Shown piece after piece: positions 44,914 through 64,000 of a stretch of 64,000 nt of DNA. This DNA comes from Raoultibacter timonensis. GTDB lineage: Bacteria; Actinomycetota; Coriobacteriia; Coriobacteriales; Eggerthellaceae. Below the pieces are notes generated by a model. The model was not told the DNA's origin. It saw nothing but the letters and a program-made list of their open reading frames with translations, and did not search any database. The stretch covers positions 845,540 through 909,539 of the forward strand of contig NZ_LT964681.1 in the NCBI RefSeq assembly GCF_900240215.1, read 5' to 3'. The translations under genes were made by a program, and so were the position numbers. Within the stretch, counting starts at the first letter, position 1. Each line of letters begins with the position of its first letter.

Positions 44914-45171
44914 GGACGACTGCGCGCGCAGCCGCAAGCCTCCGCGAACTCCGAGGCTACACAGCGCTTTAACCATTAGTTGTACCGCTGCGCGACCTCT
45001 CCCTCACCCAGTTACTCGCATATACAATGGTGGAAAGGCACACGAAGCCGCATACGCACGTCTGTCATCGAATCCCCTGATACCGCCGCCCGAGCGATAC
45101 GAGCGTGCACATCAGAGCGGACGAGCCGACGTATGCATGCGGCTTCATAACGTTCATCAGGAGGATTGCAC

Positions 45172-46002
45172 ATGAGAGGTGTAAGACGGGGTGCGCTTGT
45201 GTTCGCCGCCGTGCTTCTTGCTTTTGCGCTGGCACCGCTGTCCGGCTGTACCGGCAATACCGACAAAGCCAACGCTTCGGGCAGCAGCACGTTGCGCGTC
45301 GGCGTTCGCAGCGACGTTATGAACTTCGGCTATCTCAACGAAGATACGAACAACTACTACGGCTTGGAGATCGACATCGCCGAAGAACTGGCCGATCGGC
45401 TCGGTTACGCAGACGTCGAATTCGTAAGTGTCTTGCCCGAGACGCGCAAGGAGATGCTTCTCGACGGCGAGGTCGATTGCCTCGTTGCCTGCTACTCCAT
45501 ATCCGATACGCGTCTTGAGAATTTCGATTTCTCGCCTGCCTACTACAACGACGCCGCCATCATGATGGTGGAGAACAGTTCGCTCATCACCGATATCGAT
45601 CAACTTAAGGGCATGACGTTCGGCACCATGTCGGGATCGAACACCGCTCCGCAGCTCGCAATCAAGCTCACCGAGATGGGCTTCACCAACGGCGAGGTCG
45701 TCTCCCAAAGCGAAGATGGGGCGGGCGCGCAGTTCGATACGTTCTACCTCCAGCAGATTCCCTCATACCAGGAACTCAGCCAGGCGCTTGAGAGGGGAAC
45801 CATCGATGTGGCATGCATGGACGGAAGCATCGCCAAAACGTACCTCACCGACGATCGCAGCCTTCTCGACACCGAGATCGCAAACCAGCAATACGGCGTT
45901 GCCACGCAAAAGGGCTCTGTCTTAAGCCAGCCGGTCGCAGACGCCATCCAGGCAATGCTCGATGACGGAACCATCGACGCGCTGATCGACAAATGGGATT
46001 AG
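45172..46002 (+). CDS. Amino-acid-type substrate-binding lipoprotein
   Basis: A 276-residue SBP_bac_3-type periplasmic-binding-fold protein. It has a lipoprotein signal ('LAPLSGC', lipid-bearing C26), then 'LRVGVRSDVMNFGY', 'YGLEIDIAEELADRLGY', 'LLDGEVDCLVACYSISDTR' and 'FSPAYYNDAAIMM', the usual polar amino acid binding pattern. GGAGG precedes ATG 45172. No permease or ATPase gene is nearby. Instead, a Cache-Cache-MscS channel gene starts 14 bases after its stop. A role as ligand-presenting partner of that channel, not as an importer component, is inferred from position. The 258 bases before it show no other gene. Confidence 0.88.
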   Translation: MRGVRRGALVFAAVLLAFALAPLSGCTGNTDKANASGSSTLRVGVRSDVMNFGYLNEDTNNYYGLEIDIAEELADRLGYADVEFVSVLPETRKEMLLDGEVDCLVACYSISDTRLENFDFSPAYYNDAAIMMVENSSLITDIDQLKGMTFGTMSGSNTAPQLAIKLTEMGFTNGEVVSQSEDGAGAQFDTFYLQQIPSYQELSQALERGTIDVACMDGSIAKTYLTDDRSLLDTEIANQQYGVATQKGSVLSQPVADAIQAMLDDGTIDALIDKWD

Positions 46003-46016
46003 GAACGGTGCATCGC

Positions 46017-49000
46017 ATGTCAAGAAAACTCAAGGTGAAAACAGCCATCCTCATCGTCGTAGCAGTGGCGAGCTTGGCCGTCATGGCCGTATCGCTTACC
46101 ACGATGCAAAGCAGCCTCTCGCTCGACAGCTATACCGACGAGATGGAGCAGGAGGCGAGCGATCTCAAAATCCTTCTTGCCGAAGCGAACGAAGAGACCG
46201 AGCAGAACACCGTCACCTACGACGAAATATACCAATCGAAAGCCGAAAGCGTCGCTTTCATGGCGAACAACAACGTCGGATTCGAAGCAACCGACGCGAA
46301 GATGGCGGAGTATTGCGAGCTGCTCGACGTCGATAACGTCATGGTCGTCGACCGCGACGGAACGATCGTCGCCAGAGCATATAATTCCCCCCCCCAGAAC
46401 TTCTCCTCAAGCCGATTCAACCAACTCAGAACCGTATTCGATGACGGCGAACCCTCTGCCGCGGTGGAAGTGGAGCTGCCCGAACAGGATTGGTGGGATC
46501 GCTACTACGCCGCCCGCATCGACGATTCCACGATGGTCGTGATCGAGCAGAATCCCGAGGAGCTCTACCAACTTATCGCGGACACGGGATCGACGGCAAG
46601 CGTGCTCAAGAACATCAGCATCGGCCAGCACGGCTATATGTTTGCGGTGTCGGGCCGCGATTACTTGATCGAGTACCACCCGCTGTCGAACCTCGTCGGA
46701 AGCGACGCCCTCGACGGCGGGATCGATGTGACCGACCTTGAAGACGGCGCTTTCACCTGGATGACCCTCGACGGCGAAAAGCTCTATTGCGGCGTGAGCA
46801 AGATCGACGATGCATACTACATCGCTGCGGTTCCCGAAAGCGACATGACCGCGTCGCGCAACGTGACGGTTGGCGTTATCCTCTTCGTGTTCTTTGCGGT
46901 CATGACGATCATCATCACGTACGGCATCTTCGTAATGCAGGAAGACGAACGCCGAGGACACGATTTCGAAGACTACAGCCCTGTCGGGCCTTTGCGCTAC
47001 AACAAGACCATCGGCAAGAAGGCGGCCGTACTGTCGCTGGTGGGATTCCTGGGCATTCTCGTCATATCCTTCTATATGCAAACCCTGTTCGCACTCTCCT
47101 CGGAATCCGTCGCCAACAACGAGCGTGTCAACGAGATCGAAGGCACCATCCAGCGCGCAGAGGCCCGAGCAGGCGAGCTCACCGCACAATACGGCGAACG
47201 TTACCTGAGCAAATGCGAGACGGCCGCCTACATCATCGAGCGCAATCCCGCTCTTGCAACCAGGGACAAACTGCAAGAGCTGGCAGACGTTCTTCAGATC
47301 AAGAGCGTGTTCGTATTCGATGCGGCGGGAACCCTGACGGCAACGAATTCCACGTATACGAACTTTGTGCTGAGCGACGATCCTACCGACCAATCCTACG
47401 AGTTTCGCCAGCTGCTGCAAGGCGTGGAGTACGTTATCCAAGAGCCCCAAGCCGATGAAATCTCAGGCGAGATGGCTCAATACATCGGCGTAGCCCTGTA
47501 CGATGCCGAAGGAGGCACCGACGGCTTCGTACAAATCGGCATCCGTCCGACCCGCCTCGAAAACCTGCTCGCCAGCGTCCAGATCGAAAGCATCCTCGAC
47601 GGCGTGAAAGTGGGCACCGACGGATTCGCCTTCGCCGTGGACAAGGCCGACAACACCTTTGCGTACTTCCCCGACGATCGCTTGCTCGGCAAGGAAGCCT
47701 TGGCTCACGGCATGACCGAATCCCAGCTCAAAGACGGCTACTGCGATTATATAACCATCGATTCCAAGCAATACTACGCCTCGTCGCTCGAGACGGACAA
47801 TTACTATCTCTACGTTGCCGGTACCGAAGGCGAGCTCATGGAAGAGCGCGTACCCCTCACGCTCATAACGGGCGGCATCGCGCTTGCGTGCCTCGTCATC
47901 ATTTTCCTGCTGCTTGCATTCGACCGCGAGTTTTCATTCGCAGGCAAGCCGAAGAACGGGACGGATGCCGAACAGCGCATGATCGACGTGAAGATGCCCA
48001 GCGGGCGCACGATCAAAACGGAATCGGCGGCAAGCCGCTGGATCAACAGGTCGTTCAAGTGGAACGAGAAAACCGCAGAGCAGAAGATTCTCTCGGTCGC
48101 CCAATGGCTCGCTGCGATATCGGTGCTTGCGGTATTTGTAGCCGTAGTGTTCCAGGATCGCATCTTCGGCAGCGGCTCCATCTTCTCCTACATCTTGAGC
48201 GGCGAATGGCAGCGCGGGTTGAACATCTTCGCTATCACCGCCTGCATCATGTTTGCCTGCGTGGCCATGACCGTTGCCACCATCGTCCAAAAGCTCCTGC
48301 GTCTGCTTTCGGGCGTACTCGGAGCACGTGGCGAAACCGTATGCAGGTTAGTGGGGAGCTTCATCAAATACGGAACCATCATCGGCATGCTGTACTACTG
48401 CCTGGCGCTCATCGGCGTTGATACGACGACGCTGCTCGCCTCAGCCGGCATCCTGTCGATCGCAATCAGCTTTGGCGCGAAAGAGCTCGTGTCCGACATC
48501 CTCTCGGGGCTGTTCATCATCTTCGAGGGCGAGTTCCGCGTCGGCGACATCATCATGGTCGGCGATTGGCGCGGCACGGTTGTCGAAATCGGCGTGCGCA
48601 CCACCAAGATCGAAGACGGTTCCAAGAACATCAAGGTCATCCGCAACAGCAACGTGAGCGACGTCATCAACATGACCAAGCAATCGTCCTACGCTTCATG
48701 CGACGTGGGCATCGAGTACGGTGAATCGTTGGAACGCGTGGAGAACATCCTCGCGCAGGAGCTCCCCTTCATCCGCAAGCGCCTGCCGGCCATCCAGGAC
48801 GGCCCGTTCTACAAGGGCGTCGTCTCGCTCGGCGACAACAGCGTGAACATCCGCATCGTCGTCCAGTGCGACGAATCGGACCGCATACAGCTCGAACGCG
48901 ACCTGAACCGCGAGATGAAGCTCCTCTTCGACAAGTACGATATCAGCATTCCGTACCCGCAGGTGGTACTCAACCAACCCGTCGAGTACCGCAAGGCGAC

Positions 49001-49091
49001 TGAAGCCGAAAAGCGCACAGCCGACCTCTTCAACGAAGAGCAGAAGAACGCCGCAAAAGACCTCGGCAACGAGGAGGACGAAGAGCGGTAG
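46017..49091 (+). CDS. Double-Cache sensor fused to an MscS-type channel
   Basis: A 1024-residue membrane protein. TM1 is at 8-32, a first extracellular Cache-like domain at about 35-280, TM2 at 285-307, TM3 at 336-360, a second Cache-like domain at 362-612, and TM4 at 614-636. Then come TM5 (about 692-713), TM6 (735-760) and the MscS pore helix with beta domain ('LLASAGILSIAISFGAKELVSDILSGLFIIFEGEFRVGDIIMVGDWRGTVVEIG', about 803-860). The two Cache units align with each other ('SVLKNISIGQHGYMFAV' and 'SILDGVKVGTDGFAFAV'), so the sensor is duplicated. Start ATG 46017 is likeliest, although the ribosome site is weak. A run of nine C at 46387-46395 lies at codon 124. Ligand-gated channel opening is inference. 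Confidence 0.88.
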   Translation: MSRKLKVKTAILIVVAVASLAVMAVSLTTMQSSLSLDSYTDEMEQEASDLKILLAEANEETEQNTVTYDEIYQSKAESVAFMANNNVGFEATDAKMAEYCELLDVDNVMVVDRDGTIVARAYNSPPQNFSSSRFNQLRTVFDDGEPSAAVEVELPEQDWWDRYYAARIDDSTMVVIEQNPEELYQLIADTGSTASVLKNISIGQHGYMFAVSGRDYLIEYHPLSNLVGSDALDGGIDVTDLEDGAFTWMTLDGEKLYCGVSKIDDAYYIAAVPESDMTASRNVTVGVILFVFFAVMTIIITYGIFVMQEDERRGHDFEDYSPVGPLRYNKTIGKKAAVLSLVGFLGILVISFYMQTLFALSSESVANNERVNEIEGTIQRAEARAGELTAQYGERYLSKCETAAYIIERNPALATRDKLQELADVLQIKSVFVFDAAGTLTATNSTYTNFVLSDDPTDQSYEFRQLLQGVEYVIQEPQADEISGEMAQYIGVALYDAEGGTDGFVQIGIRPTRLENLLASVQIESILDGVKVGTDGFAFAVDKADNTFAYFPDDRLLGKEALAHGMTESQLKDGYCDYITIDSKQYYASSLETDNYYLYVAGTEGELMEERVPLTLITGGIALACLVIIFLLLAFDREFSFAGKPKNGTDAEQRMIDVKMPSGRTIKTESAASRWINRSFKWNEKTAEQKILSVAQWLAAISVLAVFVAVVFQDRIFGSGSIFSYILSGEWQRGLNIFAITACIMFACVAMTVATIVQKLLRLLSGVLGARGETVCRLVGSFIKYGTIIGMLYYCLALIGVDTTTLLASAGILSIAISFGAKELVSDILSGLFIIFEGEFRVGDIIMVGDWRGTVVEIGVRTTKIEDGSKNIKVIRNSNVSDVINMTKQSSYASCDVGIEYGESLERVENILAQELPFIRKRLPAIQDGPFYKGVVSLGDNSVNIRIVVQCDESDRIQLERDLNREMKLLFDKYDISIPYPQVVLNQPVEYRKATEAEKRTADLFNEEQKNAAKDLGNEEDEER
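46387..46395. repeat. C9 homopolymer inside the Cache-MscS gene
   Basis: Nine consecutive C encode part of 'NSPPQN'. Slippage by one base would end the protein early, so the tract could switch the channel on and off. Confidence 0.6.
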
Positions 49092-49204: not shown

Positions 49205-49918
49205 TTACAGCCCGAGCGCCTTCTTGAGTGCGGAAACGCGGCGGCGCGAAACGGGGATCTTCTCATCGGTGCCGTCGAGCGTGAGCAGCAGCGTGCCGCC
49301 CGAAACCGATTCTATCTCCTCGACAAGCGAGAGGTTCACGAGGTAGCCGCGATGCACGCGGAAGAACCCGTGCCCGTCCAAGCGCTTCTCGAGCTGAGCC
49401 AAGCTCACCGTCGAAAAATAGCGGTCGGTATCGGTTTGCAGGTACGCGTAATCGTCGCGCGCCATGACGAAGCGGATCTTGTCGATGCCGATAAGAATCT
49501 TCTTGCCGCCCTTTTCAACCGGGATGCGCTCGGAACGCTGCGCCTTGACGTGCAGCGAAACATGTTCGCGCACACGAGCGATAGCCTGCGAAAGGCGCTC
49601 GGTCTCAACGGGTTTCACCAGATAATCGATCGCGTTCACCTTGAAGGCGTCGAGCGCGAATTCGCTGTAGGCCGTTACGAACACAACGGCGGGCGGAAAC
49701 TTCAGATGCTGCAAAGCTTCGGCTAGTTGCAGACCGGTGGCCTCGGGCATGTTCACGTCGAGAAACATGACATCGCATGGATACTCTTTGAGCTTCTCGA
49801 TGGCCTCGCGCACGCTGGCAGCCTCGGCAACCACTTCGGTCTGGCCGAGCTCGTCAAGCAGGTATTTGAGTTCTGACCGCGCGGGCGCTTCGTCGTCTAC
49901 GATCATTGCTTTCAACAT
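49205..49918 (-). CDS. LytTR-family response regulator
   Basis: A 237-residue protein with an N-terminal receiver (D8-D9, phospho-acceptor D54 in 'FLDVNMP', Lys in 'AIDYLVKPV') and a C-terminal LytTR DNA-binding domain ('IRFVMARDDYAYLQTDTDRYFSTVSLAQLEKRL...FFRVHRGYLVNLSLVEEI'). GGAGG precedes ATG 49918; a longer frame is less likely. No histidine kinase gene is adjacent, so its partner sits elsewhere. LytTR regulators often control surface or cell-wall functions. Its neighbour on one side is the MscS gene and on the other the third Mo-enzyme cluster. Confidence 0.93.
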   Translation of the reverse strand: MLKAMIVDDEAPARSELKYLLDELGQTEVVAEAASVREAIEKLKEYPCDVMFLDVNMPEATGLQLAEALQHLKFPPAVVFVTAYSEFALDAFKVNAIDYLVKPVETERLSQAIARVREHVSLHVKAQRSERIPVEKGGKKILIGIDKIRFVMARDDYAYLQTDTDRYFSTVSLAQLEKRLDGHGFFRVHRGYLVNLSLVEEIESVSGGTLLLTLDGTDEKIPVSRRRVSALKKALGL

Positions 49919-50131
49919 GGGGCCTCCAAATCGCTGCGCAAGGCTGATGTAACAAGTCCCATTATAGAGCAAGTTGAGCCGATCACATGAGAATCACGCG
50001 CAACGCGAAGAATCGGGAATGAGGCGGGCGGTAAGCGGAGGGAAACAGGCCGGTGGCGATTGGGCGACTGCCGCGAAGTCGTGCTACACGCAGTGGCGTC
50101 GATTAGCACCAAAACGCCCTTGCAAACACCA

Positions 50132-50204: not shown

Positions 50205-51068
50205 CTAGGCTACCTCGACGAGTTCGTTTTCTTCGATGCCGACAAGCCTGATTTCGTTCAACCGAGCGAGGATGTTTTCAACCGCCGCGAACGCCGAGGG
50301 CGCTTCATAAGACATGTTGCAAGCAACAGCAGCTTCGGCGGAAGAGCCGCCGAGCCAAACAAGGGTTTCTGCCAAAAAAACCTCATCCAACCGGGCAAAA
50401 GCCTGCATCCCTTGGATGAGCTGCGGATACAAGCAAGCCGTCTTCGCGTTGCGAGCGAGCTTTGCGTATTCGGGAATCCAGTTGTTCAAATGGTCTCGAA
50501 CGAACCTGTACTGATCCCCCAGCAAAACGCCGAGATCGCCGAAGCGCCTATCCCGAAAAGCGGTCAGCGATCGATCCGCCAGATGGCCCATAAACGCGCA
50601 CATGGTCGAAACGTGATCGTCGGGTACGTGCTGGAACAGCTTTACCTGAAGACCGTATGATCGGTACGCCTCCCGAATCGTCAGCGTGCTTTTCTGAAAG
50701 ACAGTTGCATCGTGGCTGATGTAGGGAGCCTCCCACGGATAGGCCGGAAGATCGGCAGGCCCCTCGAAAAAGAGCGCATATTCCGTAAATGCCTCATCGA
50801 GAAACGAAGCATCCCTCGCCCTATCGGAAAGGCCGCTGATAAAAACCTCGAGTTTTCCCATTGTTTCGTCTGCATGCGCGTACTCGTTGACTACATCAAC
50901 GGTTATCGTCGAAGCCATCGACTCCAAAAGCAGCGAATTCGGCTCTCCTCCGAAAGCCTTATGAAACAAGGCGAACAAATAGCATCTGCTTACCAGCAGA
51001 GCCTCGAGGGACAGCAGCTCATCGCGAACCGCTGTCTCCTCGATTGCCGAATCCGACTTCTCGCTCAT
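50205..51068 (-). CDS. TorD-family chaperone for the third Mo-enzyme
   Basis: A 287-residue soluble helical protein. It matches the TorD pattern: 'RCYLFALFHKAFGGEPN', 'FTEYALFFEGPADLPAYPWEAPYISHDATVFQKSTL', 'DDHVSTMCAFMGHLA', and 'LGDQYRFVRDHLNNWIPEYAKL'. GGGAG precedes ATG 51068, which overlaps the FeS-subunit stop by 4 bases (ATGA). It is the last gene of the minus-strand operon and would guard the Tat signal of the Mo subunit encoded upstream. Confidence 0.88.
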   Translation of the reverse strand: MSEKSDSAIEETAVRDELLSLEALLVSRCYLFALFHKAFGGEPNSLLLESMASTITVDVVNEYAHADETMGKLEVFISGLSDRARDASFLDEAFTEYALFFEGPADLPAYPWEAPYISHDATVFQKSTLTIREAYRSYGLQVKLFQHVPDDHVSTMCAFMGHLADRSLTAFRDRRFGDLGVLLGDQYRFVRDHLNNWIPEYAKLARNAKTACLYPQLIQGMQAFARLDEVFLAETLVWLGGSSAEAAVACNMSYEAPSAFAAVENILARLNEIRLVGIEENELVEVA

Positions 51069-51643
51069 AGCACTATCTCCCGATAATCTTCCCCCATCGC
51101 AGCGTCGGATGGTTTTATAAGAAGATTCGGAGCTGTAATATCCGCACCACCAAGGCACGGCAACTCGCTCACCAGATCGCTCCCGTACTTCGATTTCAAT
51201 TCGTCCGTATCGCCGAAATCGAGCGCGCGAGTCATGCAAGCGTCGACGCAGACGGGATTCATACCGGCCTCCCGAAGTGCTTTGCAGCTATCGCATTTGA
51301 TGATCAGGTCCTTTTCTTCAGAATATTGCGGCGCACCGTAAGGGCACGACGACATGCAGGTTTTGCAGCCGATGCACACGTCGTCATCATGTAGTACAAT
51401 CCCGTCGGCACTTTTATACATGGCTCCCGTCGGGCAGTTTGCAACACACGCAGGATTCTCGCAGTGGTTGCACGACACCGAAGTGTGGTACATCGTAGCA
51501 GAGGGATACGCACCCGCCTCGAACGTTACCACCCTCCTCGTCTGCGGTCCAGCCTGCTCGAGACCCAAGCGATCCTTGCATGCCACTTGGCAGACACGGC
51601 ACCCGATGCAGCGGGTCTGATCAAAATAAAAGCCTTCGCTCAT
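51065..51643 (-). CDS. DmsB-like four-cluster ferredoxin subunit (third Mo-enzyme)
   Basis: A 192-residue protein without a signal peptide. Cluster motifs are CIGCRVCQVAC, CNHCENPACVANC, CIGCKTCMSSC and CDSC...CVDAC. It is expected to link the Mo catalytic subunit to an anchor. It starts 3 bases after the stop of the Mo-subunit gene and overlaps the chaperone gene by 4 bases. Confidence 0.92.
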   Translation of the reverse strand: MSEGFYFDQTRCIGCRVCQVACKDRLGLEQAGPQTRRVVTFEAGAYPSATMYHTSVSCNHCENPACVANCPTGAMYKSADGIVLHDDDVCIGCKTCMSSCPYGAPQYSEEKDLIIKCDSCKALREAGMNPVCVDACMTRALDFGDTDELKSKYGSDLVSELPCLGGADITAPNLLIKPSDAAMGEDYREIVL

Positions 51644-51646
51644 GAT

Positions 51647-54376
51647 CTACTCCTCCGTCCAAAGAACAGGTTCCCTCATGCAATCAGCTGGCAACGGCTC
51701 GCCGTCGTATTTTTCAAAATCGACAAGACAGCTGTTATAGCCGTTCATATGGGGGAAGAACTCGTCTTGCGTGTTCGCATCAACCAACATGTTCTCGTTG
51801 CCGCCGAAATCGATGCCCGTTTCGGGATCGAGATACGTCCGCGGCCCATGAGGCATAGCTATACCACCCGGCATGATGAGGTTGGTTACACTCGCTTGGC
51901 GGAGAACCTTGCCGGCATCGTTGAACACCAGCACCGTATCTCCGGTTTCGATCCCCTTGGCAGCGGCATCCTCCGCGCTGATGAACACAGGATTTTGGAA
52001 CGCTTCTTGAGTCCACACGTTCTCGTCGTAGTTTGTGTGGGCTCGCCTGAGATAATGAGGTTGGTACATAAGGAACGGATAGGTTCCGCTCTCCTTGGCC
52101 TCCCAATTGGAAAAACTGTTTTCGTAAGTCGAAGGATGATACGTCGGATACGGCTTGAGTTCTTCTTGAGCATACCCGATTCCATTGATGCTATCGGCTT
52201 TCGCCTGGCAATAGATCTCCATCTTGCCGCTTGCGGATCCTCGCGGATTAGCCTCGGGATCGTCGATGAAATCCTTATAGCCGATATAGCCGAGGTTGTC
52301 GCCCTGTTCGCGCGGCACAATGTACATGCCCTGCTTGAGGAGATCTTGCAGGGAGATCACGCCTTCCTGCGGCTCGCCTTCCACATCCCATGCATCGATA
52401 TCGTCTTGGGTGATCGTAACGAGCGTCTTGTAGGTGACTCCGTCGACATCGATCACCTCGGCTCCGGCGATCTTGTCGTAATAGGACTGGATGTCGCTGA
52501 TCGGATACAGCTCGCTCGGATCGAGATCGAGTAGTTTCGCAAGCTCGCTGAAGATCCACGTCTCGTTCTTCGCTTCGTACATAGGCGCAATGATGGGCTG
52601 CGTCACAAGGATCATATCGCGACTGCACTGGAAACGCGAAAGACGCATCGTGCTTGTCGTAGCAACATCCAATTCGCCCTTGCTCTTATCGAGGCTGCCT
52701 TCCCACGGCGTCGTGCACGGCAAAAGAATGTCGGCGTACTGGCTTGTCAGCGTATAGCGGTAGTGAACGTCAACCACCATGTCCATCTTCTTGAAGACTT
52801 TGATGCCGCGATTGATGTCCTCGGTCGCTTGAAGAGGATTATGGAAATCGTTCACGATGATTTTCGGGTCAAACCGGATCTCTTCCTGAGGAAGAAAATT
52901 GTTATCGATCGGGCCCTTGCGGTAGCCGCCGCGATTGTAGTACACGCCCTCATCGAGGCTCCTCCAGATTTCCGGTTTGCAAATCTCTGGTCGCTCGAGC
53001 GGATTGGGGACCGTAGCGCTTTTGCTCGGATTTCCCAGCTTGACAAGGCGAGGACCGCCGTTGGCCGATTCGGTATTGAACACGCTCCCGCATGCGTTGC
53101 CAGGACGTCCCAGATGACCTCCCATGCAGGCCACAGTCATGAACAATTGCGGCAAATCGATCGTGCCTTTATACCGAGACGGCGCGTAGCTGTGAAGCAG
53201 CGTCACGTTGTCCTGCTTTCCGACCTTCTGCGCATACCAGGTGATATCCTCTACCGGCGTTCCGCAGATCTCGGTCGCCCACTCGGGCGTCTTCGGCTGC
53301 CCATCATACGTACCGAGCACGTATTCCCTGAAATTCTCATCCAAAGCAGCGCCTTCAGGCATGGATTCTGCATCGAACCCGACGCAGTACGTGTGCAGGA
53401 AATCCCAATCGACAATACTTTCGCCCGATTCGTCGAGTCGCAGCATCTCGTAAGCGACTGCCAGAAGAAATGCCGTATCGGTACCGGGCCGCACGCGAAT
53501 CCAGCGAGCGTCCAGCATGGCAGCGGATACATTGTAGTCGGGCCCCACGAATACGAATTCCGTCCCGTTTTCTTTGGCAAGGCGATAGTAGTACGAAGGA
53601 TTGCCCCCGTTGTGCCAAGCGGGGTTGATGCCGTACAGCACGATAGTATCGGCGTTGAGCATATCGAGACGGTCGTTGATGAGCAGCGCATCGGGAAAGC
53701 CATTGCCAACGGTGGTGCCCATTTGGATCGGTGCCAGATACCAATTGCCGTACGATTCGGTGCTGTTCCACTCGACTCTGCCCCCGAGCAGGTTCAATAC
53801 CTGCCACTCCGTTCCCATGCACACAACCGAACGAGGTCCGTAATCGGCATAGACGCGCTTCAGTTCCTCGGCAACGTATCCGAGCGCTTCTTCCCAGCTG
53901 ATGCGCTCCCATCCTTCTTCGCCGCGCAAGTCGCCATGGGCGTTTTCTCCGCCGCCCGGCTGCCAGCTTTTGCGCTTCATGGGATACTTCAAACGGTTGG
54001 CGTTGAACACGTGCTGGCGCAACGAATGGCCGCGCGGGCACGAACGCTGCTGCGGCGTTTCAAGCGTATCTTCTTGATCGTCGTTTGTTTTCTGGCGCAG
54101 CACAACGCCGTCTTTGACAAACGCTTTGTTGACGCAGCGGCCTCCGCAGTTCGCCCAGCACTCAACCGTTACCCATGAGCCTTCGTCGCCAAGAATCGCC
54201 GTATCCGATTCCACGACATGCGGGTTCATTCCATCGGCGTCGGTTTCTTTGGCACCCGCTTCGCTGCCTCCGTTCGGCGCACAACCGATAAGGCCCATCG
54301 CTGCGACGGCTGCCGTAGCAGCGGCACCGCCCTTGAGAAAATCGCGGCGGCGGATACTTCCATCCAGTAAAGACAT
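51647..54376 (-). CDS. Tat-exported molybdopterin oxidoreductase (third)
   Basis: A 909-residue catalytic subunit. It has a Tat signal (RRRDFLKG, 9-16), a Cys that fits a lipobox-like region (C32), the 4Fe-4S site C73-x3-C77-x3-C81...C113, and a bis-MGD fold ('RLKYPMKRKSWQPGGGENAHGDLRGEEGWERISW', 'VGPDYNVSAAMLDARWIRVRPGTDTAF', 'ILLPCTTPWEGSLDKSKGELD'). It is longer than the other two in the window. AAGGGGGG precedes ATG 54376. The order Mo subunit, FeS subunit, TorD is complete, but the anchor (NrfD-like) is on the other strand at 54544, sharing the promoter gap. The acceptor is unknown. Confidence 0.9.
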   Translation of the reverse strand: MSLLDGSIRRRDFLKGGAAATAAVAAMGLIGCAPNGGSEAGAKETDADGMNPHVVESDTAILGDEGSWVTVECWANCGGRCVNKAFVKDGVVLRQKTNDDQEDTLETPQQRSCPRGHSLRQHVFNANRLKYPMKRKSWQPGGGENAHGDLRGEEGWERISWEEALGYVAEELKRVYADYGPRSVVCMGTEWQVLNLLGGRVEWNSTESYGNWYLAPIQMGTTVGNGFPDALLINDRLDMLNADTIVLYGINPAWHNGGNPSYYYRLAKENGTEFVFVGPDYNVSAAMLDARWIRVRPGTDTAFLLAVAYEMLRLDESGESIVDWDFLHTYCVGFDAESMPEGAALDENFREYVLGTYDGQPKTPEWATEICGTPVEDITWYAQKVGKQDNVTLLHSYAPSRYKGTIDLPQLFMTVACMGGHLGRPGNACGSVFNTESANGGPRLVKLGNPSKSATVPNPLERPEICKPEIWRSLDEGVYYNRGGYRKGPIDNNFLPQEEIRFDPKIIVNDFHNPLQATEDINRGIKVFKKMDMVVDVHYRYTLTSQYADILLPCTTPWEGSLDKSKGELDVATTSTMRLSRFQCSRDMILVTQPIIAPMYEAKNETWIFSELAKLLDLDPSELYPISDIQSYYDKIAGAEVIDVDGVTYKTLVTITQDDIDAWDVEGEPQEGVISLQDLLKQGMYIVPREQGDNLGYIGYKDFIDDPEANPRGSASGKMEIYCQAKADSINGIGYAQEELKPYPTYHPSTYENSFSNWEAKESGTYPFLMYQPHYLRRAHTNYDENVWTQEAFQNPVFISAEDAAAKGIETGDTVLVFNDAGKVLRQASVTNLIMPGGIAMPHGPRTYLDPETGIDFGGNENMLVDANTQDEFFPHMNGYNSCLVDFEKYDGEPLPADCMREPVLWTEE

Positions 54377-54543
54377 AAATCCCCCTTTGCCTTGGTTCCA
54401 TAGTAGCGGGTACGAGTCCGTTTGCCCATCAGCAAGCCTGCAGGAACGTGCTCGGTGCATGGCTCTACCCGACATGGTGTCATACTATACCGATTCACCA
54501 ATTCAGTCAATGGGTATTCCACTTTGGCTCGAAATGACTGATA

Positions 54544-58357: not shown

Positions 58358-61294
58358 TTAATTCAGATCGAACGCAACCGAATCGTCGGGCTTCCAAGAA
58401 GGCTGGTCGAACTGAATGGCTTTCACGTAGGAACGCATGGTATCGACGGCAACTGCGTTTTCGTCGCCGAAGAAGCGTATCTCGTTAATTTCCGCTTCAG
58501 CAGCTGCAATAGCCGAAAGCACGCCTGGATGAACAACTGCGGTTGAGGTGAGCAGGATCACCGATCCGTGCATGCCCTGCAACGCTCCACCGGCAAGCGC
58601 ATCGGAATGCGAATCGGAACGCGTTATTGCCAGCTTGTCATAGGAAAGCTGCTCGGTTCCGCGCGATGGATCGGTAGCCCATTCGGCGATCTTGACCGAA
58701 GTATCTACGCGATCAATACCGCCGAGACGCACAACATCGGAAGCCGAAAGCCCTGAAGCCGAAATCGCCTGTTCAACAACCGAAGCGGGTACGGAGAGTT
58801 CGCTGCCGAGCACAAGAACCCGCGTGAATCCGCCGCGCGCCAAGGCATCGAGCGTGCCCTGGGTAAGCCCCTGCTCGGAAAAATCGGTCAGGAAGATGGG
58901 GCTGTTGGTATAAGCCGCCCACGAGGAGACCGATAGAGAATCGGGAAAATCCATAGAGCGAGCAATGATTGCCGTATCGGAAGAACGGGTTTCGATTTCG
59001 CCATAAATAAGCTCGGCGGTCTGCATGCGCGTCGCCCCCGCAAGACGCTCGATCTGAGCAGTGGGTAGAATCTGTGCGATCTCAGCTTCGACCGACGCCG
59101 ACACTGAAGGGGTATCGCCGATGATATACACCTTGGACGCCGACGTAGCCGCGACAAGGGCTTCACGGGTCGATGATGGAAGGGAGCTTGGGTCGGTTAG
59201 CATAATCGGAGCGTTGCCGCTAGCACCCGAAAGAGAGCTTGCGGCGAGAGCGTCGGGGAAATTGTAGTTGTGCCCTGAAGCCACAATAAGTACCGGCTCA
59301 GTCGAAATGTCCCGATCGTACGTTGCCACCTGCTGTGCAGTTTTGTAGCGCTCGTTGCCGAACAGGCGAGCAATAGAAAGCACTTCTGTGGGATCCTCGG
59401 CCTTCCACTGCGCGTACAGGGTCACCGCCGAACCGTCACTCGGAAGCGCCACCGTCTCGCCCTCGCGGTAGATCTGAGCCGACGGGTCTTCGGCATCAGC
59501 TGTGGTAGTCCAGTAGAGGAACTGGTCGGTTCCCTTCGAGAATCCGAGCTCGGCTGCCGTTTTTGCGGCATACGTCGACGAGGTGAGCACCGTTTCGGAG
59601 AAATCGCCACCCGTGCCGCCGTTCGCATCGTAGGCAATCGTCGAGAGAACGATTTGCGGTCCGAGCACCTGGTTCACATCGTAGTTGTTGTACGCATAGG
59701 CCACGTACTGCGTCGACTTCGTATCGGTCAGAATGTTCGTTCCGTGCGTCGCGATGAGCGCCGGATCGGTCAGGTCGTGCAGCGTAGCCGCCGTGTTGCC
59801 CGAGAAGACCGTCGCTGCATCGGCGTGCAGCGTCGCAAGCGTCGCATCCTGCATGTGCACGCCGCCGCCGTCTTCGGTTGCCACGTTATCGGAGACGGTC
59901 GTGCCTTCGAGCTTGATCTGCGAGTTGTAGGTCTTGTACTGGCCGCCGAACAGGCCGCCGCCGTTTGTTGCGGTGTTGCCGCTGATTTCGGAATCGGCTA
60001 TGGTCACCGAAGTGGGAAGCGTTCCCGAAACGGCGCTGCTCACGTACACGCCGCCGCCCTCGTCGGTCGCCGTGTTGTCGATGATCGTGCAGTCCGAGAT
60101 CTCGTAGTCGGTAAACGTGCTGAACGTGACGCCACCGCCGCGTGTGGCGGTATTGCCTTCGATCAGGGTGCCGGTCATCGTGAACGCGGTTGCCGCGTTG
60201 TCGTACAGGCTCAAGCCGAGGCCGCCGCCGCTCGATTGGTTCGATCCGCTCGATTCGTTGCCGGTGAAGACGCAGTCGGTGATGGTGATATCGCAGTAGC
60301 GGTCGGAGAACAATCCCCCGCCGCTCCACAAGGCCTTGTTGTTGGTGAACGTGCATTTGTCGAACACGACGGTAGCGTAGTCCTTGATAGCGATGCCGCC
60401 CGCCTGAGAATCGAGGCTCTCGTTGTCGTCGAACGTCACGTTGGTGAACGTCGCCTGGACGTTCTGCGTGGTTGACGAGCCGATGATGTGCATGGCCCCG
60501 CCCGTGCCGCGCGCGGTGTTTCCCTCGAGGACGGTATCGGACATCGTGAACACCGTGTTGCGCCGCAGCGAGATGGCTCCGGCGGAATGGGGGTTGGTCG
60601 CGTTGGCGACGTTATCCTTGAACAGGCAGTTGTCGCTAATCGTCAGCGTTACCGCATCGGCTGCCGTGTTGCCGTACGTGTTGATGGCACCGCCGTCGCG
60701 GCCCGAAGGAGCGCTGCAGTTCTGCATGGTCGTGCGCTCGAGCGCAAGGGCACCCTTGTTGATCAGGTTGATGCCGCCCGCCGTGGTGCCGCCGTCGAGC
60801 ACGGTGTCGACGATGGTGACGTTGGCCAGCGACAATACCTGGAAGTGTCTGCTCGAAGCAGCCGTGAGCGTGTTGCCGTTGCCTTGGATGAGAATTTCGC
60901 AGGGCTTGTCGATATCGATCGCGCTGTCGAACGCGAAGTCCTGGCCGATGATGATCGTGCCTTTGGGGTCGCTATCGCTCGTGATTGCGGTGATCGCAGC
61001 CTGCAGCTCGCCGAAATTCGTTACCGTAACATCGGCCACGGCGAGCGCGCCGATGCCATCGCCGACGGCAGATTGGGAGTTCGAACCGCTCTGAGCCTGC
61101 GGAACGGCTGTAGCATCCGCTGCCAGCCCAAGCTCGTCTGTCGTCGCAGCGGTCTCACCCGCAGCAACCTCTTCGGCACGCTCGCCCCCATCGACAGGAT
61201 CGGCATACGCCGCGCCCGCAAAGGGTACAAGCGATACAGCGAGGAGCGCCGCGAGGAAAAACGCAAGCGGTTTCCGCATTGGTGTTGATTCCAT
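58358..61294 (-). CDS. Beta-helix surface protein with CWB2 repeats (first)
   Basis: A 978-residue secreted protein. It has a Sec signal (about 11-37), a right-handed beta-helix region of repeating 'GNTA...GGGV' turns (about 65-560), and a Listeria-Bacteroides (InlB-type) repeat ('IAYDANGGTGGDFSETV...VTLYAQWKAED', about 565-630). Three tandem cell-wall-binding 2 repeats follow (about 635-960: 'SIARLFGNERYKTAQQVATYDRD', 'VYIIGDTPSVS', 'LAGATRMQTAELIY', 'RLGGIDRVDTSVKIAEWA'). CWB2 repeats hold proteins on wall polymers. ATG 61294 follows AAAGGAACAAGG. The function may be adhesion or polysaccharide binding. A paralogue lies 95 bases upstream in the same direction. Confidence 0.9.
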   Translation of the reverse strand: MESTPMRKPLAFFLAALLAVSLVPFAGAAYADPVDGGERAEEVAAGETAATTDELGLAADATAVPQAQSGSNSQSAVGDGIGALAVADVTVTNFGELQAAITAITSDSDPKGTIIIGQDFAFDSAIDIDKPCEILIQGNGNTLTAASSRHFQVLSLANVTIVDTVLDGGTTAGGINLINKGALALERTTMQNCSAPSGRDGGAINTYGNTAADAVTLTISDNCLFKDNVANATNPHSAGAISLRRNTVFTMSDTVLEGNTARGTGGAMHIIGSSTTQNVQATFTNVTFDDNESLDSQAGGIAIKDYATVVFDKCTFTNNKALWSGGGLFSDRYCDITITDCVFTGNESSGSNQSSGGGLGLSLYDNAATAFTMTGTLIEGNTATRGGGVTFSTFTDYEISDCTIIDNTATDEGGGVYVSSAVSGTLPTSVTIADSEISGNTATNGGGLFGGQYKTYNSQIKLEGTTVSDNVATEDGGGVHMQDATLATLHADAATVFSGNTAATLHDLTDPALIATHGTNILTDTKSTQYVAYAYNNYDVNQVLGPQIVLSTIAYDANGGTGGDFSETVLTSSTYAAKTAAELGFSKGTDQFLYWTTTADAEDPSAQIYREGETVALPSDGSAVTLYAQWKAEDPTEVLSIARLFGNERYKTAQQVATYDRDISTEPVLIVASGHNYNFPDALAASSLSGASGNAPIMLTDPSSLPSSTREALVAATSASKVYIIGDTPSVSASVEAEIAQILPTAQIERLAGATRMQTAELIYGEIETRSSDTAIIARSMDFPDSLSVSSWAAYTNSPIFLTDFSEQGLTQGTLDALARGGFTRVLVLGSELSVPASVVEQAISASGLSASDVVRLGGIDRVDTSVKIAEWATDPSRGTEQLSYDKLAITRSDSHSDALAGGALQGMHGSVILLTSTAVVHPGVLSAIAAAEAEINEIRFFGDENAVAVDTMRSYVKAIQFDQPSWKPDDSVAFDLN

Positions 61295-61323
61295 ACCTTG
61301 TTCCTTTCTCAACTCGTGAATGC

Positions 61324-61355
61324 GAGTCGCCCCGAGACCGATCCCGGGGCGACTC
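61324..61355 (-). terminator. Hairpin between the two CWB2 genes
   Basis: GAGTCGCCCCG (61324-61334) pairs with CGGGGCGACTC (61345-61355). It is 33 bases past the stop of the upstream paralogue and 30 bases before the first CWB2 gene, so it can separate the two transcripts. Confidence 0.6.
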
Positions 61356-61388
61356 TTCCAGACAGCTATCGGTTAGCTGCCGCCTTGC

Positions 61389-64000
61389 CTACCCCAAATC
61401 GAACGCCACCGAGTTATCGGGTTTCCAGGCGTGATCTTCGAATTGGATTGCCTTCACATAGGCCTGCATGGTGCTGACGGCAACAGACTTTTCGTCACCG
61501 AAGAAGCGGATCTCGTTAATACCGTCTTCCGCTGAACCGATAACCGACAGTACGCCAGGATGGGTGCGGTCAGTCCAGGTAAGCAGAATTACCGAACCGT
61601 GCATGCCCTGCAACGCCCCACCAGCGAGTGCGTCGGTGTGCGAGTCGGCGCGGGTAACCGCTACGTTGTCGTAGGAGAGAGCTTCTGCACCACGGGCAGG
61701 ATCGGTAGCCCATTCGGCGATCTTGACCGAAGTATCCACTCGATCGATGCCGCCGAGTCTGATCGCGTCGGAATCGGCAAGACCCGTCGCTGCAAGCGCT
61801 TGGCCGACAACGGAAGCGGGCACCGAAAGCTCGCTGCCAAGAACGAGAATTCGCTCAAAGCCGCCCGAAGCAAGCGCATCGAGCGTTCCTTGGGTCAACC
61901 CGGTTTCCGCAAAATCGGTCAGGAAGATCGGGCTTTGCGTATGTGCTGCCCAAGACGATACCGAGAGAGAATCAGGGAAGTCCATGGAACGGGCGATGAC
62001 AGCGGTTTTGGAAGCAGACGCCCCGAGCTCCTTGTACACGAGTTCAGCAGTCTGCATACGCGTCGCACCGGCAAGACGAACGATTTCAGCGGAAGGCAGC
62101 AAGGCCGCGATCTCCGCCTCAACGTTTGCCGACACCGAAGGGGTATCGCCGATGATATAGATCTTGGAAACCGAGGTTGCCGCAGCCATCACGTCGCGCG
62201 TCGCCGAAGGCAAGTAACTTGGATCGCTCATCAAGATCGGCGCGTTGCCGAGGGCACCCGAAAGGGAGCTCGCCGCAAGCGCATCGGGGAAATTGTAGTT
62301 GTGGCCGGAAGCAACGATGAGCGTAGTCTCAGTTGAGATATCACGTCCATACGTGGCAACTTGCTTGCCGGTCGTATAGCGGTCGGCACCGTAGAGACGC
62401 GCGATAGAAAGCGCCTTACCTGCAGGAGGCGCCTCATCGAGCACGTACTGGGACGGAGTAGCCGAATCGCGAACAACAGAGAGCCCGCCCGGGGTCCATT
62501 CCATGTAGATCGACTCGTCGGTAACCGCCGTCGTGCCGTCGGCGCGTTTGGCGATAAGCGATCCGACCGCCGCACCGTCCTCGAGACCCTCGACGTTGAT
62601 TCGTGCACCAGCGAGCAGGTTCTCGCCTGCGAGAATGGTAGCGTGAGTCTTCGAGTCGAAGTAGATCCCGTTGTCGGTGTCCGACGTTCCGATCTGCGTG
62701 GCGTCCTGCACGTTGAGTGTCGAAGGCGCAAATACGATCACGCCGCTTCCGAGGACGGCCGCGGTGTTGCCCGATATGACGGACCGGTCTTTCATGGTGA
62801 GCGTGGCGTTCACGGCAATGTGCACACCGCCGCTGATACCCGTAACCGAATTGTCGGTTATCGAAGCATCATCGGCAAACGTCGCTCCGCAACCGCCCGA
62901 AAGGATGATGCCACCGGCGACGAACGCTTCGTTGCCCGATATCTCCACATCATCAGAGAAGGTGAAGCTGCTGGTGGTTATGCCGATTCGTTGCGTAAGG
63001 ATCACGCCGCCGCCGATGTTGGCCGCCACATTGTCGGCAATCGAAACATTGCCGGAGACGGTTCCGTCGAAGCCGGACATGTACAGACCGCCGCAGTCAG
63101 TATCGGTTTTATTGTCGTGGATTTCCACGTTGCCGAGAATGTCTGCGTCCATAATGGCAGCGCCCTTTTCATCGCCGTTGTTGATGTACACGCCGCCAAC
63201 CTGGTTGCCATGATTGTACGCAACCTCGAGATCTCCCGACAGCGTCAGCGTTCCGTTGTCCTCGTTGTTATCGCTCGTCGTGTAGGCGATGCCGCCCCCC
63301 ACATCGGATGCGGAGTTGCCGAGAACCTTAACTGTACCGCCGATCGTGATCGGAGCGCTTCCCTTGCCTGAAACGATGCAGATGCCGCCGCCGGCTACGC
63401 CGGCGTTTCCATCGGCAGGGTCGGTGCTTCCGATCGTTCCGCCGGTAATGTTGATCGGACCAGTGCCCCACAGGTTAATGGCGCCGCCGAGGCCCAAGCC
63501 GCCTCCCGTGTTGTTCGTAAAGGCTCCCCCCGTCATGGTAAACGAGCTGCCGTACCTGACATCGCCCATGTAGCTGACAGCGCCGCCGCCGCGACTGCCC
63601 ACGTTGCCGTCGAACGTACCGCCGTAGATGTTCAGCACACCGGCAGACCAGATCGCGCCGCCAAAGTAGTTCAGATCGGTGTTGTTGAGGAACTCGCCAT
63701 CGTTGACGGTCAGCGTCGAGTTGCGACCGACGCAGAACGCACCGCCCGAACCTGCAGAGTTGTTCGAGAACGTCCCACCGTTCACGGTGATCTCAATCGA
63801 GGGAGCGCCCTCGAAATGATGCGATCCGGAAACCGCACCGCCGTGACCGCTATCCCCCTCCTGCACTGGCGCCGAATTGCCGTCGATCAGGCACCCGTCG
63901 TTGAACGCCATCGTGGCGCCTTCGCCGACCGCGTTCACGGCAGCGCCGTTGTAACGCAGGTTGTAACCGGTCGAGCTGGCCATATCGATGATGTTGTTTT
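61389..64000 (-). CDS. Beta-helix surface protein with CWB2 repeats (second, N-terminus outside window)
   Basis: 870 residues are visible and the frame stays open to the window edge, so the start and signal peptide lie beyond 64000. The visible part has a long beta-helix region of Gly/Asn/Asp-rich turns (about 1-500), no InlB-type repeat but a short 'TNESIYMEWTPGG'-like spacer, then three CWB2 repeats (about 525-860) close in sequence to those of the first protein ('SIARLYGADRYTTGKQVATYGRD', 'IYIIGDTPSVSANVEAEIA', 'RLGGIDRVDTSVKIAEWA'). The C-terminal ends 'KPDNSVAFDLG' and 'KPDDSVAFDLN' are nearly alike, which points to a tandem duplication. Confidence 0.88.
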   Translation of the reverse strand, partial: NNIIDMASSTGYNLRYNGAAVNAVGEGATMAFNDGCLIDGNSAPVQEGDSGHGGAVSGSHHFEGAPSIEITVNGGTFSNNSAGSGGAFCVGRNSTLTVNDGEFLNNTDLNYFGGAIWSAGVLNIYGGTFDGNVGSRGGGAVSYMGDVRYGSSFTMTGGAFTNNTGGGLGLGGAINLWGTGPINITGGTIGSTDPADGNAGVAGGGICIVSGKGSAPITIGGTVKVLGNSASDVGGGIAYTTSDNNEDNGTLTLSGDLEVAYNHGNQVGGVYINNGDEKGAAIMDADILGNVEIHDNKTDTDCGGLYMSGFDGTVSGNVSIADNVAANIGGGVILTQRIGITTSSFTFSDDVEISGNEAFVAGGIILSGGCGATFADDASITDNSVTGISGGVHIAVNATLTMKDRSVISGNTAAVLGSGVIVFAPSTLNVQDATQIGTSDTDNGIYFDSKTHATILAGENLLAGARINVEGLEDGAAVGSLIAKRADGTTAVTDESIYMEWTPGGLSVVRDSATPSQYVLDEAPPAGKALSIARLYGADRYTTGKQVATYGRDISTETTLIVASGHNYNFPDALAASSLSGALGNAPILMSDPSYLPSATRDVMAAATSVSKIYIIGDTPSVSANVEAEIAALLPSAEIVRLAGATRMQTAELVYKELGASASKTAVIARSMDFPDSLSVSSWAAHTQSPIFLTDFAETGLTQGTLDALASGGFERILVLGSELSVPASVVGQALAATGLADSDAIRLGGIDRVDTSVKIAEWATDPARGAEALSYDNVAVTRADSHTDALAGGALQGMHGSVILLTWTDRTHPGVLSVIGSAEDGINEIRFFGDEKSVAVSTMQAYVKAIQFEDHAWKPDNSVAFDLG

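Follow-up and report, generated by a model that had tools for sequence, protein, structure and literature searches.

A solute-binding lipoprotein paired with a double-dCache MscS-type channel: a putative acidic-amino-acid-responsive osmolyte channel in gut bacteria

Why should an amino-acid-binding lipoprotein be encoded directly ahead of an MscS-type channel, with no linked amino-acid permease? The question is raised by a stretch of 64,000 nucleotides of Raoultibacter timonensis (assembly GCF_900240215.1, contig NZ_LT964681.1, positions 845,540 to 909,539, forward strand; hereafter the window), in which the gene of a solute-binding protein (SBP) precedes that of a channel bearing two extracellular dCache sensors (Table 1). 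We favour the view, with a probability of roughly 55%, that the pair constitutes a ligand-modulated, aspartate- or glutamate-responsive, SBP-gated osmolyte channel of the MscS type. An earlier examination of the letters alone (the sequence-only reading) had proposed a ligand-controlled channel; our analysis supports it, the gating being a prediction.

The pore of this channel belongs to the MscS superfamily. Pore helix, beta domain and C-terminal domain are all present, bearing out the complete core announced by the sequence-only reading, and the last of these domains (MS_channel_3rd) is below reporting level in 11 of the 28 relatives; conservation in both proteins was assessed throughout in this set of 28 sequences from two phyla. 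The solved structure of TtMscS (3udc) matches residues 801-994 of the 1032-amino-acid form of the channel (E 1.2e-34). TtMscS is described as anion-selective (PMC5661003), and selectivity of that kind, if shared, would suit glutamate passage by this channel; MscS-type channels do export glutamate, according to two reports (PMC6110860, PMC12541555).

Ahead of the core, hydropathy places four transmembrane (TM) helices around the two sensors, and three more in the MscS part. Sensor 2 is a dCache_1 domain by Pfam (match over residues 403-595); sensor 1 scores below the Pfam thresholds and is assigned by its predicted fold. Sequence profiles of the two sensors gave, against the PDB, a spurious WD40 match and a weak one to a chemotaxis ligand-binding domain (E 0.0024), so that fold comparison was required. 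The top 50 Foldseek matches in the PDB of an AlphaFold model of isolated sensor 1 (predicted local distance difference test, pLDDT, 88.5) are chemoreceptor or histidine kinase sensor domains, overwhelmingly tandem-Cache, the best being 6mni (PscC, E 3.5e-10), with moderate TM-scores of about 0.4. The full-length channel model (pLDDT 75) matches MscS first and dCache ligand-binding domains next. Profiles, the two models and Foldseek concur that each sensor is a double (tandem) Cache, which gives the channel four Cache folds. Structure prediction of the channel alone and a domain search, both proposed with the sequence-only reading, thus retained its two extracellular sensors and the TM helices bracketing them, and corrected the single Cache that it had allotted to each. 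The two halves are homologous by hhalign (99.9% probability, E 8e-33, 26% identity) over 281 columns that include the flanking TM helices, which indicates that the sensor half is the product of an internal duplication of a TM-dCache-TM unit. At the end of the helix leading into sensor 2, nine of the ten positions of the motif FYMQTLFALS are invariant and the tenth, L360, nearly so, a constraint unusual for a mere anchor.

Which of the two proteins would recognise the ligand? Neither dCache of any of the 28 channels contains YxxxRxWY, the universal motif for amino acids in dCache_1 (PMC9901441), and the two therefore fall outside dCache_1AA; they are unlikely to act as canonical receptors of amino acids, and because both lack the motif, recognition probably sits in the SBP. 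The latter is, as first read, a substrate-binding lipoprotein, assigned to family 3 by its profile match, by lipobox cysteine C26, by R114 for the alpha-carboxylate and by D217 for the alpha-amine, the three residues being invariant. In mycobacterial GlnH, aspartate is contacted by R147, T162, S164, R169, W232 and D250, and side-chain contacts are reported to be specific to acidic-amino-acid binders (PMC6069109). Residues R92, C107, S109, R114, Y199 and D217 of our SBP match the spacing of these contacts exactly (15, 2, 5 and 18 residues), and the same positions align with R, T, T, R, Y and D of PEB1a. AncQR, a reconstructed ancestral glutamine-type SBP, lacks the first two arginines. There is no variation among the relatives at R46, R92, S109, R114, Y199 and D217, and the position of GlnH T162 (107 here) is cysteine in 20, threonine in 7 and alanine in 1, with cysteine in Coriobacteriia and Bifidobacterium and mostly threonine in Clostridia. 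The features of aspartate/glutamate-specific SBPs are therefore present in the sequence: an invariant arginine (R92), an invariant aromatic residue (Y199) and cysteine or threonine at 107 in 27 of the 28. Because the pocket reproduces acidic-binder-specific contacts of GlnH and PEB1a, and because AncQR is without the first two arginines, the predicted ligand is probably aspartate or glutamate, a step beyond the amino-acid type first suggested.

A gene-neighbour survey, likewise proposed at the outset, indicates how constant the pairing is. Scanning of GTDB genomes gave 49 loci with full or partial homologues of the channel (48-74% identity), in Coriobacteriia (Gordonibacter, Eggerthella, Collinsella, Olsenella, Enorma, Senegalimassilia), in Clostridia (Mediterraneibacter, Ruminococcus, Lachnospiraceae) and in Bifidobacterium panos; the nearest named relatives at the locus are Gordonibacter, Eggerthella and Enteroscipio (72-74%). 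Within a sample of Coriobacteriia, 18 of 149 genomes carry the channel, in a distribution that is patchy even inside genera. The SBP gene lies immediately upstream of the channel in 46 of the 49 loci, over two phyla, and the three others are either cut at a contig end (L003) or contain broken channel genes (L047, L048), which argues that the architecture is not chance. No fusion of the two genes was seen among the relatives. Such an order recalls transport operons, and one might suppose that the SBP passes its captured amino acid to the channel for facilitated entry; MscS pores are large and passive, with no means of concentrating a solute, and we know of no precedent for SBP-fed uptake through such a pore, so that this explanation is hardly credible. 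The absence of ABC (ATP-binding cassette) transporter parts, noticed in the window from the letters, extends to the whole set: no amino-acid permease is linked to the SBP in any of the 49 loci, none of which holds a relative of the amino-acid ABC permeases of the window genome. Those permeases come with SBPs of their own, and the next SBPs of that genome (39% and 29% identical to this one) adjoin permease genes.

More distant homologues were found in Lachnospiraceae, one of which (L072) has the SBP, while three (L068-L070) are channel versions of about 950 amino acids with no SBP and with sensor 1 cut down. The SBP-less L070 (L070:1623-6826) lies immediately downstream of genes for K+ uptake (TrkH and KtrA-like), and another relative (L074:1608-7599) adjoins a histidine kinase with N-terminal SBP_bac_3 domains. 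The SBP-less forms, in which the SBP is evidently not essential to this type of channel, bear on a different explanation, namely that the dCaches sense a ligand of their own, or ionic strength, and gate the pore, the SBP just scavenging amino acids leaked through it. The dCache fold binds ligands directly, and its best structural matches here are amino-acid chemoreceptor domains. Three points tell against this explanation: scavenging would require a transporter, and the pair has no linked ABC permease; none of the dCaches has the amino-acid motif; and nearly every channel of the double-dCache form comes with the SBP. We consider it unlikely.

Clustering of the flanking genes added an aquaporin (MIP, E down to 2e-52), which lies beside the pair in 18 of the 49 loci: divergently upstream in Olsenella, Enorma and their relatives, co-directionally upstream in Clostridia, directly downstream in L049, and in Bifidobacterium on the opposite strand, 1.6 kb upstream. 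In the Coriobacteriia sample, an AqpZ-like aquaporin is present in 17 of 18 channel carriers and in 12 of 131 non-carriers (Fisher test, p 9e-14; p 3e-9 when any MIP match is counted), although these counts ignore phylogeny and the p-values overstate certainty. Better evidence for the link is the several gene arrangements together with the agreement of presence and absence of the two genes inside genera (g8, g11, g12 and g15 of the sample, and mostly in g13). Within the family of the window organism, all 9 carriers and none of the 12 non-carriers have the aquaporin; every one of the 21 genomes sampled there has TrkH. MscL, used as a control, is not associated with the channel (p 0.22), and an effect of genome size was rejected on that ground. 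The aquaporin thus recurs as a third partner of the pair and suggests a role in osmotic physiology. It would also suit a plain tension-gated safety valve, as MscS channels are, whose outer domains tune tension or wall anchoring and whose SBP serves an unlinked amino-acid ABC importer, and the K+ uptake genes of KtrAB type (TrkH) beside L070 fit equally. Against this stand the SBPs that the amino-acid ABC permeases of the genome already possess, and the dedicated pairing kept across phyla, and we hold such a valve to be distinctly improbable.

We infer the contact between SBP and dCache, the ligand identity, the gating and its sign, and the permeant solutes of the SBP-gated channel as follows. 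dCache domains relay signals through their TM helices, and MscS pores release osmolytes. Since ligand-loaded SBPs, moreover, activate sensor domains in kinases, in chemoreceptors and in enzymes of cyclic-di-GMP metabolism (PMC9602780), a loaded SBP could change the opening of the MscS pore. Held by its lipid anchor at the outside of a membrane of Gram-positive type, the SBP would capture aspartate or glutamate and, closed and loaded, dock on one or both of the extracellular dCaches. As happens in other Cache receptors coupled to SBPs, movement of the stalk and TM helices would be relayed by way of TM4 and the linker and would reach the MscS helices, shifting the tension or the probability at which the pore opens; external glutamate might either open or close it. 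The open pore would release small osmolytes, plausibly including glutamate, and the aquaporin would fit a role in turgor and water balance. One might go further and see here a new class of prokaryotic ligand-gated channel, in which a glutamate/aspartate lipoprotein gates an MscS-type pore via tandem dCache adaptors and which, with the aquaporin, provides gut anaerobes with an osmotic valve under chemical control, a proposal that we make tentatively and rate somewhat short of even odds.

Several observations, besides the neglect of phylogeny in the co-occurrence counts, weigh against an SBP-gated channel with an aquaporin partner. In another Lachnospiraceae homologue (L071:2468-6895) the sensors are full-length and an unrelated lipoprotein of no Pfam family replaces the SBP. 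The AqpZ-like aquaporin of the window genome (L077; genome G000, contig C1:776224-776898) is not linked to the pair, nor is the aquaporin in most Eggerthellaceae, and genome-level co-occurrence of aquaporin and channel was not striking or convincing in a Lachnospiraceae sample. The indications for the docking site also conflict: the SBP-less variants, which lack most of sensor 1, point to that sensor, whereas distance correlations favour sensor 2. Sensor 1, suggested by the former and unsupported by the latter, is thus one candidate site beside sensor 2.

Table 1. Features of the SBP-channel locus (window coordinates)
Feature	Position	Strand	Basis or remark
Shine-Dalgarno of SBP gene, AGGAGG	45159..45164	+	sequence
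Family-3 solute-binding lipoprotein, 276 amino acids	45172..46002	+	SBP_bac_3 E 8.3e-25; best solved relative PEB1a 2v25
Lipobox cysteine codon, LSG-C26	45247..45249	+	sequence; invariant in 28 relatives
Shine-Dalgarno-like AGGAACGG, overlaps SBP stop codon	46001..46008	+	sequence; start comparison in relatives
Double-dCache MscS channel gene, 1024 amino acids	46017..49091	+	alternative upstream start 45993 (1032 amino acids)
TM1, residues 4-32, leads into sensor 1	46026..46112	+	hydropathy; AlphaFold helix 3-84
Sensor 1, extracellular dCache, residues 33-276	46113..46844	+	AlphaFold pLDDT 88.5; Foldseek; homology to sensor 2
TM2, residues 277-309	46845..46943	+	hydropathy
TM3 and motif FYMQTLFALS, residues 331-361 (motif 352-361)	47007..47099	+	hydropathy; alignment of 28 sequences
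Sensor 2, extracellular dCache_1, residues 358-609	47088..47843	+	Pfam dCache_1 E 1.5e-13; matched in all 28 relatives
TM4, residues 610-643	47844..47945	+	hydropathy
Cytoplasmic linker with conserved SAASRW segment, residues 644-688	47946..48080	+	alignment; AlphaFold
MscS transmembrane helices including pore helix, residues 689-822	48081..48482	+	MS_channel_1st E 6.6e-8
MscS beta domain, residues 824-887	48486..48677	+	MS_channel_2nd E 7e-15
MscS C-terminal alpha/beta domain, residues 894-978	48696..48950	+	MS_channel_3rd E 7e-5

The SBP gene starts with ATG. For the channel, the start at 46017 (M9 of the called frame) appears better placed than the one initially called, because both the Shine-Dalgarno-like sequence and the start used in most relatives point to M9; it leaves a gap of 14 bases between the two genes, and close spacing is also seen in relatives. 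A search for promoters, terminators and RNA families at the locus gave nothing informative. Elsewhere in the window, all on the minus strand, are a LytTR-type response regulator (49205-49972) that converges on the channel gene, with no adjacent histidine kinase noticed; a molybdopterin oxidoreductase with its Fe-S subunit and a TorD/NarJ-like chaperone (50205-54475), typical of Eggerthellaceae; and two large surface proteins (58358-63983) that carry cell-wall-binding repeats of the CWB2 type, one of them with a beta-helix region.

If the SBP-gated channel is real, ion and osmolyte channels would join kinases, chemoreceptors and cyclic-nucleotide enzymes, the known outputs controlled by bacterial SBPs and Cache domains. 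MscS channels would gain a chemical input from outside the cell, and in common gut bacteria a link would be made between acidic amino acids, water flow and turgor. How does it compare with known systems? The nearest solved core, TtMscS (3udc/3t9n), aligns over about 190 residues in its pore helix, beta and C-terminal domains, and differs from this channel in having neither the two N-terminal TM-dCache-TM units nor an SBP partner. In systems of the LuxP-LuxQ type an SBP docks on a tandem PAS/Cache (PDC) periplasmic domain, much as we propose, but the output is a histidine kinase and the SBP is of another family. Relatives of the bacterial ionotropic glutamate receptor GluR0 also link a family-3 SBP fold to a channel, there by fusion to a K+-channel-like pore, whereas here a separate SBP, a Cache adaptor and an MscS pore are combined. 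The mycobacterial GlnH-GlnX-PknG system likewise encodes an aspartate/glutamate-binding lipoprotein together with a membrane protein, GlnX, that carries two sensor modules outside the cell, but these are four-helix bundles, with a kinase as output (PMC6069109), in place of dCache sensors and a channel. MscCG of Corynebacterium and MscS of B. methanolicus are, like this channel, of the MscS type and both release glutamate; their abstracts describe them as tension-gated and mention neither extracellular sensors nor an SBP partner (PMC6110860, PMC12541555). Our search of the open-access literature, subscription papers lying outside it, gave no description of Cache-MscS, dCache-mechanosensitive, SBP-MscS or aquaporin-MscS systems, in keeping with the sequence-only reading, which knew of no system with this layout. 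Within that scope, none of the findings named as refuting that reading (sensors unlike Cache, linkage with the binding protein not conserved, an earlier description) came to light. A survey of Cache domains from 2016 gives, in the passages that bear on this, only VWA_N and VGCC_alpha2, domains of calcium-channel subunits, as ion-channel outputs (PMC4822843). The parts are thus of known kinds and their combination appears new, provisionally so as regards the absence of an earlier description. The alpha2delta subunits of animal calcium channels likewise control an ion channel from outside through two dCache_1 domains, although as a separate subunit, with the amino-acid motif in the first dCache and an unrelated channel (PMC9901441). 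Our pair, if the proposal holds, would be a compact bacterial counterpart of these Cache-controlled calcium channels and of glutamate-gated channels.

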